Assembly (NCBI RefSeq): GCF_004343725.1
Contig: NZ_PTQW01000013.1
Span: forward strand, 1-64,000
From: Treponema sp. J25
GTDB lineage: Bacteria > Spirochaetota > Spirochaetia > Treponematales > Breznakiellaceae
Direction: 5' to 3'
Length of the DNA stretch: 64,000 bases
Below the pieces are notes generated by a model. It saw only the letters and a program-made list of their open reading frames with translations, did not search any database and had not been told where the DNA came from. Positions 53,692-64,000 of this stretch are shown in pieces. Position numbers and translations under genes: made by a program. The number at the start of each line of letters is the position of its first letter. Position 1 is the first letter of the stretch.

Positions 53692-55863
53692 TTATTGCCC
53701 GGGGGCCTTCCGTCGAACCACCAATTCCTGCAGGGCCAGGTTTTCTGCGGATACCGCTTCTTTCCTGATTTTTTCGTATATCCAGTATTGGGCTCGAAAC
53801 GGTTCTTCCGTGGCCCCTGCGAGTGACGAGACAGGAAGCCACCTACCATCCCTTTGTAGCCGATGAGCATGGGTAGTATCTCTAAAATAGGCAAAGAGAA
53901 AGCTCTTTATCTCTTCTTTTATATCCACATCCACAATCGGGAAAAGTAATTCTATTCGTCGTTCTAGGTTTCGCGGCATCCAATCTGCACTCGAAAGGTA
54001 GACTTCCTCGGCCCCCCCATTCATAAAATATAGGATCCGGGCATGTTCGAGGTAGCGATCGATAACACTCACCACCTCAATAGTAGAAGACAAGCCGGGC
54101 ACGCCTGGCACAAGCATACAGATACCCCGAACATTCAGCTGAATCTGAACCCCTGCCTGGCTTGCCCGATACAACGCTTCTATGACCTCTGGATCAGAGA
54201 GGGAATTCAATTTGGCGACAATTTTACCGGGATATCCTTGACTTGCCCGTCTTGTTTCCCGATCTATCAATTCTAAAAGTCGCTGTTTAAGGTTGATAGG
54301 GGCCACAGAAAAGAGTTTCATCGATTGAACGATAGAATATCCCGTAATCATGTTAAAAAACAGGGTCACATCCTGGGCATATTCTTCGTAAGCGGTAAGC
54401 AAGCCCACATCGGCATACAGGCGAGCGGTCTTATCATTATAGTTTCCCGTAGAAAGATGCACATACCGAACCATGGAATCCTCTTCCCGGCGCACAATAA
54501 GACATACCTTGGCATGCACCTTTAAACGGGCAAGGCCATACACCACGATGGCCCCCGCTTCTTCGAGCCGATTTGCCCAGGTGATATTCTGTTCCTCATC
54601 AAACCGGGCTTTAAGTTCCACTACGGCGGTAACATGTTTACCATTCCGCGCTGCCTGCTCTAAGGCCCGAACTATCGGCGAATCCCCACTGGTACGGTAC
54701 AGGGTAATCTTTATCGCCACCACCCGGGGATCCGTCGCCGCATCTTGCAGGAGCCGCACCACCGGATCAAAAGAATGATACGGATGATACAAGAGAACAT
54801 CCGATTGGCGAATCCGATCCCACAGGGGCCCTTCTTCAGGTAAAGCCGGTGGCCAGTAATGGGTCCAGGCTTCATATTTCAATCCTTCAAAGCCCTTCAC
54901 ATGAATGAGGGGCATCAGGGCCGGTATATCGATGGGATGGGGGGTAACATAGACATCCTCATCTCCAAGGGCAAGAAGATCCTGGATGATAGCACGTAAG
55001 CTTGTACTTGTAGAAGAGCAAACCATCCTCACAGGAGCAGACCGTTCCCGGTTCCGAAGCACCTCCGCCATAGCCTCGATAAAATCCTCATCCCGCTCTT
55101 CATCTACCGAGATATCCGCATCCCGGGTAATCCGAAACAGCATTGATTCCCGAATAGCATACCCCGGGAAAAGGAGATATCCCCAGCGGAGAAGCACCTC
55201 ATCCAGCAAGGTGCATTGGCGGACCCCCTCTTTACTGGGGGGAAGCCAGATAAGGCGCTCAATGCTCGAAGGAATCTGGACTATCACCGGGAGGGGTTCG
55301 GATGTTTCATCAGCCATGGCCGAACCATTTTCCGACGGTCCTGGCTTAGATGAGGCGGCCACAGTTTCCTGGGGGACCAGCAGAAAAGCTCCATGCAGTT
55401 TAAGATTTCCTATGGTGGGCACCTCTTCTCCCGCCTTCATCCTCAGGGGTGTTAGCGCAGGATACACTTGATTCATAAAGAGGTGTTCCAGATACTGGGC
55501 CTGTTCCTCTGAGTACTCTTCGGCTCGAAGCAATTCTAAGCCTGAACGAACAAGGGCGGGCAAAATCTCTTCCTGTAAACAGACATATTGTCGTTCCACA
55601 ATAGATTGGATTTTTTCCCTCGCCCGGCGCAATTGTTCTTCTATGGAAAGCCCCGAAATATCGGGCCCCGCCCCTGACCGCAGAGCCCGTTTTAGGGTCG
55701 CAATACGAATCATAAAAAATTCGTCAAAATTAGAGGAAACGATGATAAGATACTTGAGTCGCTCCAGAAGGGGCACATCTTTTCGTAAGGCTTCATAGAG
55801 AACCCGTTCGTTAAAATCAATCCAGGATAAGTCCCGACTAAAAAAAACATTCTTCTCTTCCAT
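53692..55863 (-). CDS. ppk1: Polyphosphate kinase 1
   Basis: A PPK1 of 723 residues, standard length, with the N-terminal helical, head and two phospholipase-D-like catalytic domains: LSWIDFNERVLYEA, YHPYHSFDPV, the catalytic-histidine segment KVHAKVCLI and the NYNDKTARLYADVGL stretch. It makes polyphosphate from ATP. An exopolyphosphatase gene lies upstream on the same strand, so polymer synthesis and breakdown are encoded together. Confidence 0.95.
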   Translation of the reverse strand: MEEKNVFFSRDLSWIDFNERVLYEALRKDVPLLERLKYLIIVSSNFDEFFMIRIATLKRALRSGAGPDISGLSIEEQLRRAREKIQSIVERQYVCLQEEILPALVRSGLELLRAEEYSEEQAQYLEHLFMNQVYPALTPLRMKAGEEVPTIGNLKLHGAFLLVPQETVAASSKPGPSENGSAMADETSEPLPVIVQIPSSIERLIWLPPSKEGVRQCTLLDEVLLRWGYLLFPGYAIRESMLFRITRDADISVDEERDEDFIEAMAEVLRNRERSAPVRMVCSSTSTSLRAIIQDLLALGDEDVYVTPHPIDIPALMPLIHVKGFEGLKYEAWTHYWPPALPEEGPLWDRIRQSDVLLYHPYHSFDPVVRLLQDAATDPRVVAIKITLYRTSGDSPIVRALEQAARNGKHVTAVVELKARFDEEQNITWANRLEEAGAIVVYGLARLKVHAKVCLIVRREEDSMVRYVHLSTGNYNDKTARLYADVGLLTAYEEYAQDVTLFFNMITGYSIVQSMKLFSVAPINLKQRLLELIDRETRRASQGYPGKIVAKLNSLSDPEVIEALYRASQAGVQIQLNVRGICMLVPGVPGLSSTIEVVSVIDRYLEHARILYFMNGGAEEVYLSSADWMPRNLERRIELLFPIVDVDIKEEIKSFLFAYFRDTTHAHRLQRDGRWLPVSSLAGATEEPFRAQYWIYEKIRKEAVSAENLALQELVVRRKAPGQ

Positions 55864-55949: not shown

Positions 55950-57467
55950 TCAGGCCAACAACACCCGGTACCCATATACATTCATAAAAAGGTCCGCCTT
56001 TTCTTCTATCCCTATTCGTTCCATGGTTATGTCCTGTTCGTCAGAAAGCCGAATAAGGATCGTATCATCCCGTATTTCCAGGGTAAAGTCCCGGATTCGC
56101 TGGGCATGGCCCCGATCGAGGGCATCCGCAATCCGAAGGATGGCCGCCAATTTAAGCACCAGGATCCGCTCTTCTCGCTGAAGGGCCAGATAGGCAATAT
56201 GGGTTGAATTAGGGGGAGCCTTACGGTGATACCGCACCACATTAGAAATGATATTAAGTTCATCCTGGTGCAACCCAAAGATCTCCGAATTGGCAATAAT
56301 GTACTGACTATGTTTATGGTGCCCCGAACTCCGAATAAACATACCGATATCATGGAGCAGGGCCCCTATTTCCAGAAAGAGCCGGGAACGGCGTTCCAGC
56401 CCATGGATAGGCCGCAGTTCATCAAAGAGGCGAAGCGCAAGCATCCGCACATGACGGGCATGTTCTTCATCAAAACGGTATTTTCGACCGAGGTTGATCG
56501 CCGAGGCAATAATCTGAGAAAAAAATTCTTCCTGCAGATCGCTTTCTATCCCCGAGGCCAGGGTAATCAGCATTCCTTCCCGAATAGAAGCATTGGGAAC
56601 GATCACCTCGGTGGCACTGGTTTGCTCAAGAAAAAGCTTGTATGTCAACAGCCCCGGAATAATGCCTTCCGCTTCTGCATAGGGGATCCTGAGTTTTTGT
56701 ACACATTCTTCTACCGAATAATTTTCGATCCGATCCACAAAATCGATGAATACCTGGCGACCAATAATCCAGCAGTTTTTATTTATCTCAAGGCCAAAGC
56801 GATTCGCCACAAAACGGGCATCAGAACCGGCCACAATGAAGGTCCGCACATGCCGGAGGTCCATCTCTTTGGTGAGGGATTCACAGGTATTCAACACACA
56901 TTCTGTCAGATACCGTTTAAGATAATGGGGGGTTCCAAAGGATTGACGAACCTGCTGATCTATAAGAATGGTCCCCAGTCGCAAACTGTGGGCCGCCACC
57001 ATTTTCCCCCGGCGCAAGAGCATGAGTTCCGTAGAACCCCCACCAACTTCGATGATCACCGAGTTGGATCGATTAAATTGAGGGCGATCGTGCCCCAGGG
57101 CCCATTTCACAGCCACGTACATGAGCCGGTTTTCTTCTATGCCTTCTACCACATTTATGGTAAAGCCGGTTTGCAAAAAAACCCGGTCAATAAACATATC
57201 CCGGTTCCGGGCTTCCCGCAGGGCACTCGTAGCAATTACATGGACATCTCCATCTTTAATGCCCCACCCGTTTATAAGTTCTTTATAGCTTTTTAGAACC
57301 GCAATAGAATTTAAAAGGGTTTCGCGACTGATATTTCCATCGGTAAACACATCCCGTCCCAGGGAAACAGGCTTACTCGCCCGATCCACCACCTGCCACT
57401 GTCCATTCTTAAAGAGTTCTGCCACGAGCAAACGAATACCGGTGGATCCAATTTCGATGATAGCCAT
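55950..57467 (-). CDS. Exopolyphosphatase (Ppx/GppA family) with HD-type C-terminus
   Basis: A protein of about 505 residues. The N-terminal ASKHA phosphatase domain (about 1-300) shows IEIGSTGIRLL and IEVGGGSTELM. The C-terminal domain (about 310-500) has an HD-like ALLHDIGMF and VVRYHRK. The family hydrolyses polyphosphate or pppGpp; ppk1 next door favours polyphosphate. Two starts are possible, ATG 57467 (used here because the conserved fold begins at once) and ATG 57491; neither has a clear ribosome binding site. A TACACT six bases before ATG 57491 would suit a leaderless start. Confidence 0.88.
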   Translation of the reverse strand: MAIIEIGSTGIRLLVAELFKNGQWQVVDRASKPVSLGRDVFTDGNISRETLLNSIAVLKSYKELINGWGIKDGDVHVIATSALREARNRDMFIDRVFLQTGFTINVVEGIEENRLMYVAVKWALGHDRPQFNRSNSVIIEVGGGSTELMLLRRGKMVAAHSLRLGTILIDQQVRQSFGTPHYLKRYLTECVLNTCESLTKEMDLRHVRTFIVAGSDARFVANRFGLEINKNCWIIGRQVFIDFVDRIENYSVEECVQKLRIPYAEAEGIIPGLLTYKLFLEQTSATEVIVPNASIREGMLITLASGIESDLQEEFFSQIIASAINLGRKYRFDEEHARHVRMLALRLFDELRPIHGLERRSRLFLEIGALLHDIGMFIRSSGHHKHSQYIIANSEIFGLHQDELNIISNVVRYHRKAPPNSTHIAYLALQREERILVLKLAAILRIADALDRGHAQRIRDFTLEIRDDTILIRLSDEQDITMERIGIEEKADLFMNVYGYRVLLA

Positions 57468-57507
57468 AAGCCGATACGAAACACTTGCCATACGTTTAGT
57501 GTATAAA

Positions 57508-57610: not shown

Positions 57611-59050
57611 TTACAGTTTATCTATCAGCATCGAACATTTCCCTGAGGGAATCGGAAGGGTTTTTTTCTTCTTCCCTAAAATGTTGATAGTAAAATAATA
57701 AAGTTTTTCACTTTCCATGTGGATTTCCCAACCCCGACCACTTTTATTAGAAAGGATGGTGATCATGTTTCGTTTTAAGGAAAGATTTTCTATTCCCATG
57801 ATTTCCAGGTTGGGAATATACCAATCTACCGTTTTGCGGGGCAAAGAAATCTCGAGTCCAATAACATTTTCGATGGTAAGACAAATGGTAGACAGGGCGG
57901 CAAAGGCAAGATAGTTGGGCCGGGGGAAAAAGGACTTTCCTTCCCACATGGCAGGCCCTTCCTTCTTGGGGAGATAGGCTTCCCAGAGATTCCCCTTGTG
58001 ATGATTACCATCGGGGTTCATGGAATCCAGTACAAAATACAGATGCCGGATGCTACATTCCCGGGCAAGATCCCAGCGCTGATACTTCTGGAGCCCCTTT
58101 ATCACCATAAAGGTAAGGTAGGGGAACACGCTGCCCCGGTAACCATTTCCCCGTTCTTCAAAGGATGGCTCATTTAAAGCCACTGTGGGAAAGGGATGGG
58201 GACTCCCAAAAAAGGTGGGGTCCGTAAGTTTTTCAATAAGCTTTTCCGCCTTATCGTCATTGGGTAATTCGGCGAGCAAGGGCCAGTAACCCGCGATGGT
58301 CTTTACTTTTATTCGCTGCTCATTCTTATCCAGATCATAATAAAACCCATCATCCCCATCCCACATAAGAGAATTGATCCGGGTCTTAAGCCCAAAGTAC
58401 TGCCGCTTATACTGAAAGCTCGCCTCCTTATCATTCAAGATATCCGCCAGGGCCGACATGTACAGGGCATTTACCGCCATCATGGTATTAAAATCTACCA
58501 GGTAATAGGCTTCTTGACGGGGAGCATTTTCCATGAGGGTTGCCGACAGGGGTACGGCATACAAACCATTGGGTTGCTTAAACCGGCTATCGATCCATTC
58601 CATGTATCGATGGAGAACGGGGACCACTTCCTTAACTCGCTTTTTGTTAGCCGACTTGTGGTACAGGTTAAACTCGGCCCAGGCAAAGAGGGGAAGCCCC
58701 AGACCCTCGGGATTTTCAGGAGCAGTGACCGGCGTCCCCGTCATGATGTCATAGGCACAGCGAATTGCCCCCGACGGTTCTTGCCGTTCATAAAAAATAT
58801 CAAGGGTGGGATGGGCCTGGAAAACCCGATTCGAATAGACCAGAAAAAAAGAGGAAAAAATGGCCTCATGCTGTTCCACCACCGTACTGGAAGGGTAGGC
58901 AAAAAATTTTCCTTTAATCGGACTCTTTTCTACCTCCCGCCAGGAGTCCTGTATCCATGCCCAGGTTCTATCATAAATATCTACAAAATCCTGATCATAA
59001 AAATGAATTCTTGGAAAATCCCTTTTAAGCACAAATTCTCCCTTATACAT
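57611..59050 (-). CDS. Alpha/alpha-barrel glycoside hydrolase (GH63/trehalase-like)
   Basis: A protein of 479 residues with the repeated helical pairs of an (alpha/alpha)6 barrel and motifs seen in GH63/GH37-related proteins: LMWDGDDGFYYDLD, KTIAGYWPLLAEL and RGSVFPYLTFMVIKGL. No signal peptide is present. Related enzymes act on mannosyl- or glucosylglycerate, trehalose or similar alpha-glycosides; the substrate here is unknown. Acidic residues suited to catalysis are present, for instance in WDGDDG and NLWEAY. The gene is monocistronic, with a perfect terminator and a divergent neighbour. Confidence 0.72.
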   Translation of the reverse strand: MYKGEFVLKRDFPRIHFYDQDFVDIYDRTWAWIQDSWREVEKSPIKGKFFAYPSSTVVEQHEAIFSSFFLVYSNRVFQAHPTLDIFYERQEPSGAIRCAYDIMTGTPVTAPENPEGLGLPLFAWAEFNLYHKSANKKRVKEVVPVLHRYMEWIDSRFKQPNGLYAVPLSATLMENAPRQEAYYLVDFNTMMAVNALYMSALADILNDKEASFQYKRQYFGLKTRINSLMWDGDDGFYYDLDKNEQRIKVKTIAGYWPLLAELPNDDKAEKLIEKLTDPTFFGSPHPFPTVALNEPSFEERGNGYRGSVFPYLTFMVIKGLQKYQRWDLARECSIRHLYFVLDSMNPDGNHHKGNLWEAYLPKKEGPAMWEGKSFFPRPNYLAFAALSTICLTIENVIGLEISLPRKTVDWYIPNLEIMGIENLSLKRNMITILSNKSGRGWEIHMESEKLYYFTINILGKKKKTLPIPSGKCSMLIDKL

Positions 59051-59096: not shown

Positions 59097-59125
59097 TTGA
59101 CAGGCCTGGAACGGGAACGCATAGT
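59097..59125 (+). promoter_or_regulatory. Promoter of the GatB-asparaginase fusion gene
   Basis: -35 TTGACA (59097-59102), 17-bp spacer, -10 CATAGT (59120-59125). Transcription would start near 59132, 26 bases before the GTG start codon, and the leader contains AGAAGGAAGGG as a ribosome binding site. Confidence 0.65.
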
Positions 59126-59157
59126 ATTTTATCCACCTTAGAGAAGGAAGGGCGGGC

Positions 59158-61551
59158 GTGTTAAAATCTTACATTTTTTTAGAAGTCCGGGTATTGCTCC
59201 TTTCCGGAGTAAAGGCTTTCTGTCCTTGCACGTATCAAGCCGATGGGGTTCCCCAATCGTGTCCTGTTTGCCGGGGAGAAACGGGGGCCATCCCCCAACT
59301 GAATCCTCTGGCAGCCCAAAAAGCATATACCATCGCACGTTCTCTGGGATGCACCCTTATCCCAGCGCCTCGGTACGAAAAAAACACCACCACCCCTGAG
59401 CTGCCCCCTACCTATCATCTCTCGCAACTGTCCTTAAAGATTGGGACCGACGGCTTCATGGATATAGTATTTCATCGTCGCAAAAAACGAATTCGGATCA
59501 CTGAAATCCGCATCGAAGAAGACGCGGGTCGCCTGACCCATTCGGGCGGAGAAACCCGGATGGATTATTCTACCGCCGGGATGCCAAGCCTTCGGATCCG
59601 TACCGAAGCGGACTTTGAAATTGGAGAAGAAGCGGAGGTTTTCCTTTCCGATCTGCGGTGCCGAATTCAGTATCTGGAACTGATATCGGGGGTTCCCGTG
59701 GAAAGCGTGATTCGCTGTAACGCCCATGTGGCCCTCGCCCCGTATCCCGAGTATCCCCGTTCATTTGTTAAACTGCGCAACCTGAACTCCTTTAATTTTG
59801 TACGAAAGGCTATCAATGTAGAACTAAGCAGGCAAGAAGAGATTATCACCAATGGTGGCACGGTGCTTCCCGAAAGCCGCCTCTGGAATGAAACAAAGAA
59901 CGCCACCGAATCCTTCCAGAAGAGAAAACAGGAAGCCAAAGCACGTTTCGTGGCCCTTGAAGGGATTCCCCCCTATACCCCGGGTCCGGAAGTTCTGCAG
60001 GTCCTGGAAAATCTTACCGTAGAACTCCCTGAAAGCAGACGGAATCGCTTTATAGAACAGTATGGGCTTTCCCTTCCTCTGGCAGAATTCATTTGTGACG
60101 AAAAAAGTCGGGCCGATTATTTTGAAGCGGTTACTGCCCTGGGAGTGGAGCCCCGGGACCTTGCCCAGTGGATGAGTTCGTACATCGTAAAAGAATTCCG
60201 CCGACTCGGCACCACACCCTTTGAATCGGCCCTCACCCCCGAGCGTTTAGCCAGCATTTTTAAAATGCTCCGAGAAAAACGGATTCACGGGGGCATAGCA
60301 AAACAGACCATTACGGCGGTTTTAGAAGAAAAAAAGGACCCCGAAGCTATCATTGGTGAGCGGGGATGGGAACAACTTACCGATAAAGAAATCATTAGCA
60401 CTATTGTAGATAAGGTTATTCAGGATAATCCTCAAGAAGTTCGACGGGTTCGGGAAGGAGACGCAAGACCCATTCGGTTCCTAACGGGGCGCATCATGCG
60501 CGAATCGGGGGGGCTTGCGGAGCCAACCCTTGTTAAGGAAATCCTCAAAGAAAAATTATCCGTCTCATTAGTGTACGTTCTTTCCATGGGGGGGGCCATT
60601 TCAGGGAAAACCAGTGAAGACGGCACTGTGGAAAGCGGGGACGAACGAATTCTGCGGGAACTATTGAGTGATAAAATCAGGGACTCCCGCATCCGTTTTG
60701 AATCAATCCAGGTGGGACGGATCCTCTCAGAAGAGATAATCCCTTCCGACTGGGCGGCCCTTATCACCACCATTTCAGAACGAATCAATTCCGGAACCGC
60801 CAATGGGATAGTGGTGGCCCATGGGACCGATACCCTTCCCTATACGGCGGCTCTTTTGTACTGGCTCTTTGCGGATGCGGGAGTCCCGATTGTTCTGGCC
60901 GCATCTTCTACTTCGCCGGACCGCTCACCCGAAGCGGCCCAAACCATGGGAAAGGCTATCCAGCTCGCCATGGAGAAAGAACGGGGGGTGTATGTGGTCT
61001 ACGGCGGGACGGTCCTTTCACCCCTCAACCTGAAGTTTGAACGAATTGGTTCCGATGGATTTCGCAACTGGAACATGCGGAGCCCCATCTTCAGTGGTTC
61101 ATCATTGCTTACCGGCCCCCTTGAAGCCGATCAGTACGTTATCACCCAGCTGCTGGAAGAAGCGGTTAATTCCATGTGCATTATCAAAATTTACCCTGGT
61201 CTTCGTTCAGATTATCTTACCGTACTGATGGACCAGGGGGTACGAACTTTCTTTTTGGAACTCTACGATACAGGTACTGCGGGTTTCCGGGAAGGGCCCT
61301 ATTCTTTACGGCGGGCCCTTACTATCGGCCGAAAAAAACAGGTTCGTTTTTATTGTACCAGTCAGCAGGAAGGGCTGGTTGATTTTTCAGGATACAGTAC
61401 CTCCCGAGAATTGTGGAAAGAAGGGGCGGTCCCCATGGGCGCATACACGACCGAATCAGTGGTAGCCCGGTATCTTGCGGCAAGCATCATCGCCGACAGC
61501 GACGAAGAACGGGCAGAACTTATGGAACAGGCAGGACCCGAACTCCTGTAA
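59158..61551 (+). CDS. Fusion of a diverged GatB/GatE-like protein and an L-asparaginase/GatD-like domain
   Basis: A protein of 797 residues. Residues 1-466 match the tRNA-dependent amidotransferase B subunit along its length: zinc cysteines in FCPC...SCPVCRG, ...EEDAGRLTHSGG, KLRNLNSFNFVRKA, and a YqeY-like helical tail ending LVKEILKEKL. Residues 467-797 are a complete L-asparaginase fold with AHGTDTLPYT and a YGGTVLSP...LKFERIGSDGF segment. Key residues differ: the GLEVH signature reads FLEVR (His to Arg), and the asparaginase TGGTIA reads MGGAIS, losing the nucleophilic Thr. Domain order and fusion recall archaeal GatD plus GatE, in one chain. It starts at GTG 59158 with its own promoter. 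The activity is unknown. Confidence 0.8.
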   Translation: MLKSYIFLEVRVLLLSGVKAFCPCTYQADGVPQSCPVCRGETGAIPQLNPLAAQKAYTIARSLGCTLIPAPRYEKNTTTPELPPTYHLSQLSLKIGTDGFMDIVFHRRKKRIRITEIRIEEDAGRLTHSGGETRMDYSTAGMPSLRIRTEADFEIGEEAEVFLSDLRCRIQYLELISGVPVESVIRCNAHVALAPYPEYPRSFVKLRNLNSFNFVRKAINVELSRQEEIITNGGTVLPESRLWNETKNATESFQKRKQEAKARFVALEGIPPYTPGPEVLQVLENLTVELPESRRNRFIEQYGLSLPLAEFICDEKSRADYFEAVTALGVEPRDLAQWMSSYIVKEFRRLGTTPFESALTPERLASIFKMLREKRIHGGIAKQTITAVLEEKKDPEAIIGERGWEQLTDKEIISTIVDKVIQDNPQEVRRVREGDARPIRFLTGRIMRESGGLAEPTLVKEILKEKLSVSLVYVLSMGGAISGKTSEDGTVESGDERILRELLSDKIRDSRIRFESIQVGRILSEEIIPSDWAALITTISERINSGTANGIVVAHGTDTLPYTAALLYWLFADAGVPIVLAASSTSPDRSPEAAQTMGKAIQLAMEKERGVYVVYGGTVLSPLNLKFERIGSDGFRNWNMRSPIFSGSSLLTGPLEADQYVITQLLEEAVNSMCIIKIYPGLRSDYLTVLMDQGVRTFFLELYDTGTAGFREGPYSLRRALTIGRKKQVRFYCTSQQEGLVDFSGYSTSRELWKEGAVPMGAYTTESVVARYLAASIIADSDEERAELMEQAGPELL

Positions 61552-62428: not shown

Positions 62429-64000
62429 TTAATAATAAATCCGAATATATTCGGTATTTGTCCGGTGTTTCATTTTCACAAGAAGGGTCTGTTCCGATTC
62501 TGAATAGGCCCATCCAGAAGAATCATAGCGTTCAAAACGGGGATCGGTACGATAATCGATGTTATACAGCTGAAGCTTCGTAAAGGACCTGATACCCCGA
62601 ATAAGCATATAATGGGTTTCTCCTTCGGGAAAATTTACCGCTATGGAGAGTACATTCCCTTCGTAGCTGGCCCGCAGGCTCCCGCCACCAGTCCAGGCCC
62701 AGATTCCCCCTACAGGGAGCCCCGGGAAGGCAACCCGTCGTGGATAGTACACATCCTGATCCACCACATAGGGATAGAGACGGGCATACCGCAGTTGGCC
62801 CTCTCCTCCGCTCAGGGACATCTCTCCAGAAGCAGGAAGCGGAAACACGGCGGCTATAAAAGAACCTATCTTACTATTTTTTAATACGGAGGCTAAAATA
62901 CTGGAACCTATATCTGACCATTCTCGCAAACCAGAACTATTTCCATAATTAACAAGGGCCTTGCCAAGGCGACAGTTAAAAAGGATGTCTATCTTTTTGT
63001 CCCTTTCGGCAAATACCATGTCAGTTCCCACTTTTACAAGAGCGCCGGCCACAACAAAACGGGCCTGATCAAGCAAGCGCTCGAAGGGATTTTCCCCTCC
63101 TGCTTCAAATAGAACACGATTCATATCACCATCAGCAAAGGTTTTCCAATCTACCCATCCTTCAAGAATTCCGCAAGCAAGGGGAAGAGTAATAGAGGGG
63201 GGATCTATACTTTTGGCAATGGTAGCCACATCAGAAAGAAGAGCCCGGTTCCCCCGCAGGGCAAGTTGATACACAACGCGCTCTTCTGATAAGAGGTCCG
63301 ACGATTTTTCGTTTGCAAGCCGGGAAATTTTACTTAAATAGTCCCGTTCATAGGCTGAAAGGGAACGCAAACCTGCATCCAGACGTCCCAAGAATGCACT
63401 AGAACGGTAGGTCCTTGCAGTTCCTTCAAGAAACAGGGGCGATATGGTGGCAACCGCTTGCCGATATGTACCGCGTTGCACCGATTCGGTAACGTACGCC
63501 AGTACGGTATCCTCATCAGGATTTTCTCCCATCATCCGTTCCCACTGGGTCATCCAGCTATTTACTACCTGGCCCCGCAGGGCGTTAAAAAGATTTTTAT
63601 CTATCCCTTCTGCTATCGTGAATTCTTGCGGATTAAATCCCTTCCGTTCCGGCAACACCCCATAAAGCGCCAGGGGATCATTTCGTCGAAGGCTCAGTAA
63701 TCGCTTGCCATAGTCAACCGCTCCCCTGCTAAACACATAGGTTTTTTCACCCTGTTTCACCAGCATGGTGCCCCGTTCACCCGAAACGAGATGGGCTGAA
63801 CGAATTACCCTAAAGGGGATACGAACCTCCGTATACCCTTCAGGTAAGGTCCCTTGAATAGAAAGAGAAGGAACTCCACTGGAATACACACTCTTAAATC
63901 GAATTTCTCCGCCCCTGGTAAGGCCGATTCGAACGTCATCCTCTCCAAGGGTCATGGTTGTTGCCACAAGATCCTGTAATTTTCCCTGTCCATCAAAGCC
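62429..64000 (-). CDS. Large protein of unknown function, truncated by the window edge
   Basis: The reading frame runs open from 62429 to the end of the window, so the start codon lies outside; the visible part is 523 residues. I recognise no family. The visible sequence has beta-rich stretches at both ends (EVRIPFRVIRS; HYMLIRGI; TLLVKMKHRTNTEYIRIYY) and a helical middle (about 110-330 of the visible part), with no cysteine pattern and no clear membrane helix. A GTG at 63967 is in frame but has no ribosome binding site. Exported or periplasmic location is possible but unproven. Confidence 0.6.
   Translation of the reverse strand, partial: GFDGQGKLQDLVATTMTLGEDDVRIGLTRGGEIRFKSVYSSGVPSLSIQGTLPEGYTEVRIPFRVIRSAHLVSGERGTMLVKQGEKTYVFSRGAVDYGKRLLSLRRNDPLALYGVLPERKGFNPQEFTIAEGIDKNLFNALRGQVVNSWMTQWERMMGENPDEDTVLAYVTESVQRGTYRQAVATISPLFLEGTARTYRSSAFLGRLDAGLRSLSAYERDYLSKISRLANEKSSDLLSEERVVYQLALRGNRALLSDVATIAKSIDPPSITLPLACGILEGWVDWKTFADGDMNRVLFEAGGENPFERLLDQARFVVAGALVKVGTDMVFAERDKKIDILFNCRLGKALVNYGNSSGLREWSDIGSSILASVLKNSKIGSFIAAVFPLPASGEMSLSGGEGQLRYARLYPYVVDQDVYYPRRVAFPGLPVGGIWAWTGGGSLRASYEGNVLSIAVNFPEGETHYMLIRGIRSFTKLQLYNIDYRTDPRFERYDSSGWAYSESEQTLLVKMKHRTNTEYIRIYY

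Follow-up and report, generated by a model that had tools for sequence, protein, structure and literature searches.

The locus at positions 59158-61551 (+) of the window, the whole stretch of 64,000 nucleotides from Treponema sp. J25 analysed here, raises the question of what a protein might do in which a GatB-type and an asparaginase-type domain are joined in one chain and the active sites of both appear altered. The gene, designated gatB::ansL (class R), is a single open frame without internal stop which starts with GTG and codes for 797 amino acids. It is preceded by a good ribosome-binding site (AAGGAAGG, 59144-59151, +) and a promoter-like element, TTGACA-17-CATAGT (59097-59125, +); in a scan, such sites were no commoner than in shuffles. 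According to Pfam, the protein is composed of a GatB core-like domain with altered active site (PF02934, GatB_N; residues 6-273, 3e-41; 59173-59976, +), a GatB tail or YqeY domain (PF02637, GatB_Yqey; residues 320-467, 6e-35; 60115-60558, +), and a type I/GatD-like asparaginase domain that has lost the nucleophile, designated AnsL (PF00710; Asparaginase match at residues 472-624, 1e-24; 60568-61527, +). The preliminary description had proposed such a single-chain fusion with two changed and two retained motifs, and all of these features were found in the protein: FLEVR (residues 7-11) in place of GLEVH, MGGAIS (residues 477-482) in place of TGGTIA, HGTDT (residues 555-559), and four cysteines at positions 22, 24, 35, and 38.

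The body of the protein is that of bacterial GatB, with core and tail homology in Pfam, and the earlier designation as GatE-like was not borne out: it scored 318 bits against the NCBIfam GatB model, slightly below the curated cut-off of 338 bits, and 74.6 bits against the GatE model, for which the cut-off is 456, so that a GatE identity was rejected. For the C-terminal part, NCBIfam matched type I asparaginase and GatD, and both homology and predicted fold are those of an asparaginase. The fusion shares with GatB of bacterial GatCAB the same core and tail domains and fold at about 30 % identity to solved GatB, from which it differs by the additional C-terminal domain. Archaeal GatDE likewise unites domains of the GatB and asparaginase families, and AnsL is similar to GatD both in its sequence and in its fold; unlike GatDE, however, the fusion is one chain, has GatB rather than GatE followed by asparaginase, and lacks the nucleophile.

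The gene is carried by many treponemes and related spirochaetes. Full-length fusions with 42-77 % identity to the window protein are present in related and named GTDB genomes, including the complete chromosomes of Breznakiella homolactica and Treponema vincentii, and a sequencing error, a frameshift, or joined frames can therefore be rejected. Spirochaete names stood on all of the best 80 fusion loci, and the fusion is old and, within the reach of the searches, confined to Spirochaetota. No plasmid record covered 80 % of the query. In the open-access literature searched, no account of a GatB-asparaginase fusion was found; a paper on signatures of Spirochaetes names GatB only for a Brachyspira insert.

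An alignment of 85 distinct fusion copies revealed two classes, designated H (n = 11 with the start covered) and R (n = 67), the latter including the window protein. Residues of GatB are numbered here as in the Staphylococcus protein, by way of the alignment; H12, H122, and E150, together with E10 and E125, are counted among the metal/ATP-site residues. Class H, which the preliminary description had not anticipated, combines a canonical GatB site and a gatCAB-aspS operon with a nucleophile-less asparaginase domain: it keeps GLEIH/GLEVH, FYPD, HLEEDAGK, E150, RCDANVS, and RYFPEPD, that is, all motifs of bacterial GatB that were checked, and its set of E10, H12, E125, and E150 is complete. In class R, the window protein included, this set is broken by arginines. 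R11 (59188-59190, +) replaces H12 in 67/67 copies, the residue being His in 11/11 of class H; R118 (59509-59511, +) replaces H122 in 67/67; and R146 (59593-59595, +) replaces E150 in 66/67. FYPD, RYFPEPD, and the neighbouring gatA and gatC genes are also missing from class R. Since E124 and E125 are unaltered, the three substitutions represent a patterned change rather than random decay. At each of the four cysteine positions (C22, C24, C35, and C38; 59221-59271, +), Cys is kept by 50 of the 67 copies of class R.

In the asparaginase-like half, the position of the nucleophile Thr12, occupied by M477 in the window protein (60586-60588, +), is Met, Leu, or Phe in 84/84 copies of both classes and never Thr, and neither class has Tyr at the Tyr25 position. 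The roles of the catalytic and substrate residues of asparaginases have been reviewed (PMC8948990). In these two positions AnsL differs from type I L-asparaginases such as that of Pyrococcus furiosus (4q0m), with which it shares the fold and the equivalents of Ser58, Thr89, Asp90, and Lys162. The substrate-binding Ser58 equivalent, S524 (60727-60729, +), is invariant; within HGTDT (60820-60834, +), which contains T557 and D558 as the counterparts of Thr89 and Asp90, the Asp is invariant and the Thr nearly so; and the Lys162 equivalent, K626 (61033-61035, +), is Lys in 79/85 copies. A few class-R copies have an altered Thr89 or Lys162 equivalent. Judged by these residues, class R is predicted to have lost both active sites. 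The close relatives of the window protein, in which canonical residues might have pointed to an error in the window sequence, show the same substitutions. The fusion is the sole PF00710 gene of the window genome.

In a GatB tree rooted with an outgroup, every fusion falls into one clade (99/98), in which class R is monophyletic (100/100) and branches from within class H (98/84, 99/88). The fusion clade also contains unfused GatBs from three lineages, so the asparaginase domain has probably been lost in about three lineages, and it was evidently dispensable in these operon GatBs. The fused asparaginase domains likewise group together (100/100), separately from the standalone enzymes. One genome (G016) encodes both a class-H fusion within a gatA-gatB-aspS operon (L266, C53) and a class-R fusion (L005, C70) and is a possible intermediate; its operon fusion is sister to the unfused GatBs of its family in the GatB tree and stands apart from its class-R gene in the asparaginase-domain tree. 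A single duplication within the treponemal order as the source of both class R and the operon GatB of f1 was weakly rejected by the AU test (p 0.036), and a position of class R just outside class H was not rejected (p 0.07), so that support for the order of events is no more than moderate. In Treponema family f3 (L027-L029, L155-L166), GatB is unfused, branches outside the fusion clade, and was perhaps acquired as a replacement from elsewhere.

Where the class-H operon could be read, its order is gatC-gatA-fusion-aspS, with aspS coding for a non-discriminating aspartate--tRNA(Asn) ligase. In ten class-H genomes the fusion is the only GatB match, and two further genomes are fragmentary. Unlike in GatDE, ammonia would presumably be supplied by the GatA encoded beside the class-H fusion. 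Next to class-R genes, the window locus included, gatC, gatA, and aspS are absent, and neither the linkage to gatA and gatC expected of a functional GatB nor the gatC-gatA-gatB-aspS cluster of class H is seen there. On one side of the window fusion lie the genes for a glycosidase, ppx/gppA, and ppk, and on the other side that for a histidine phosphatase. The divergently oriented MGH1/trehalase-like glycoside hydrolase gene (57611-59050, -) has homologues flanking loci of both classes; of 81 loci compared, 57 have it conserved near the fusion or its gatCAB ancestor, which places the class-R gene at the ancestral gatCAB locus. The genes ppk (53692-55863, -) and ppx/gppA (55950-57491, -) lie in line with the glycosidase gene, divergent to the fusion, and the order ppk-ppx-glycosidase-fusion recurs in about 18 class-R loci; that polyphosphate or ppGpp is tied to the arginine site of class R is a guess. 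Downstream, a conserved protein without Pfam match is encoded at 62429-63967 (-), with homologues in 34 loci.

A search of the window genome for canonical gatCAB genes identified, at another locus (C3), a separate gatA-gatB-aspS operon with an unfused GatB. AsnRS, GlnRS, AsnA, and an AsnB-like match are also encoded, and the fusion is therefore not needed as GatB. Deinococcus and Thermus possess an archaeal-type AspRS and GatCAB for tRNA-dependent Asn synthesis (PMC4206432). The window genome has the same pair of non-discriminating AspRS and GatCAB beside AsnRS and GlnRS, whereas here gatCAB and aspS are in one operon and the GatB of class H bears a nucleophile-less asparaginase domain. Of 15 distinct class-R genomes examined, 14 have a second GatB; the remaining one is an assembly of 88 % completeness. 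In certain Treponema genomes that retain class R, no match like non-discriminating AspRS was found, so that the role of class R cannot be limited to tRNA-dependent Asn synthesis.

Both halves of class R are under purifying selection. In 14 close pairs, in one of which dS is saturated, dN/dS reached at most 0.22 for the GatB half and 0.11 for the AnsL half, and dN of AnsL was below that of the GatB half in every pair. The better-conserved half is AnsL in 98 % of class-R pairs versus 2 % of class-H pairs, 98 % of the latter having GatB as the better-conserved half. Of the individual arguments that class R has been kept for its asparaginase-like domain, this reversal is the strongest. AlphaFold predicted each half with confidence, both for class R (pLDDT 84.7, pTM 0.70) and for class H (pLDDT 84.1, pTM 0.58), and the relative placement of the halves with less confidence. 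With Foldseek, the class-R model matched GatB of GatCAB and asparaginases; the matches include nucleophile-mutant asparaginases crystallised with Asn (5dnc, T19A; 7c8x, T13A), a precedent for binding without hydrolysis.

Both active sites appear to be dead in all close relatives, yet the gene is strongly conserved, which points to an enzyme that has broken down and become a regulator or sensor rather than to a new enzyme. Our leading reading, held tentatively and with rather less than even confidence, is that class R is a double pseudoenzyme, derived from the GatB of the Asn-tRNA pathway, which probably acts as a ligand-sensing regulator; of the functions proposed earlier, a sensing regulator and a catalytically dead partner are the ones supported. 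The ancestor would have been a GatB of GatCAB that worked with a non-discriminating AspRS and already bore a nucleophile-less C-terminal asparaginase domain. The copy that stayed at the ancestral locus in treponemal lineages would have lost its neighbours gatC, gatA, and aspS; its metal/ATP-site residues have been replaced by the three conserved arginines, and the asparaginase domain, now the better-conserved half, has retained the pocket Ser, Thr, Asp, and Lys. AnsL may then bind a small molecule such as Asn or Asp without hydrolysis, the arginine-lined former GatB site may bind a negatively charged group, namely a nucleotide, a phosphate, or the end of a tRNA, and the bound ligand may alter how the protein meets a partner. 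Several points count against this reading: Met, Leu, or Phe, bulkier than Thr, could fill the AnsL pocket; the Thr89 or Lys162 equivalent is altered in the few class-R copies mentioned above; the pocket residues could have been retained for folding; and AnsL was dispensable in the operon-GatB lineages.

The main rival, which we regard as possible but less probable than a sensing regulator, is that AnsL is a structural scaffold which serves dimerisation, as GatD does in GatDE, or docking, would hold together a transamidosome in class H and another complex in class R, and senses no small molecule. Dimers of asparaginase domains underlie the structure of both asparaginases and GatDE, AnsL lacks the nucleophile even where GatB is intact, and the operon shared with aspS suggests a multi-subunit complex; a pure scaffold does not account, however, for the invariance of the Ser58 and Asp90 equivalents, the near-invariance of those of Thr89 and Lys162, or the patterned arginines of class R. 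It is unlikely that class R is a catalyst of a new kind which performs new amide or phosphate chemistry, either with the retained Thr89-Asp90-Lys162 set, by direct attack of water, or at a rebuilt GatB site. The conserved second catalytic set and the strong selection would fit this, and direct displacement has been argued for asparaginases by some authors (PMC8948990), but the nucleophile and the Tyr25 equivalent are both missing, arginine occupies three GatB active-site positions, and class-R genomes keep ordinary GatB and Asn enzymes; with gatA and gatC not adjacent either, the same observations speak against the tRNA-dependent amidotransferase of a new kind considered in the preliminary description. 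Still less probable is a decoy or modulator of GatCAB, which would pair with GatA/GatC or tRNA and tune canonical amidation: the retained GatB fold and tail domain and the second GatB of most class-R genomes examined would suit it, but class R is also kept in Treponema family f3, whose working GatB belongs to a distant lineage, and in genomes that yielded no non-discriminating AspRS. A decaying relic or assembly artefact, to which the two altered active sites and one copy broken by a stop (L012, G037) might point, is highly improbable and is refuted for the family by the dozens of species with full-length open frames, by dN/dS values well below 1, and by conserved synteny.

To our knowledge, no sensor domain has been described for GatCAB. 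It is conceivable, though we consider it doubtful, that the pseudo-asparaginase of class H senses Asn and feeds back on Asn-tRNA formation and that the treponemal class R, released from tRNA amidation, is a stand-alone regulator which senses Asn and an anion and has a rebuilt former GatB site lined with arginines. If the double-pseudoenzyme reading is true, a subunit of a translation enzyme gained a dead metabolic enzyme as a domain, and one lineage then lost the translation activity and kept the dead domain, which would leave two pseudoenzymes in one chain. The fusion makes amino-acid feedback on tRNA-dependent Asn synthesis directly testable, and it draws attention to a widespread, apparently unstudied treponemal gene which automated annotation is liable to label GatB or asparaginase.
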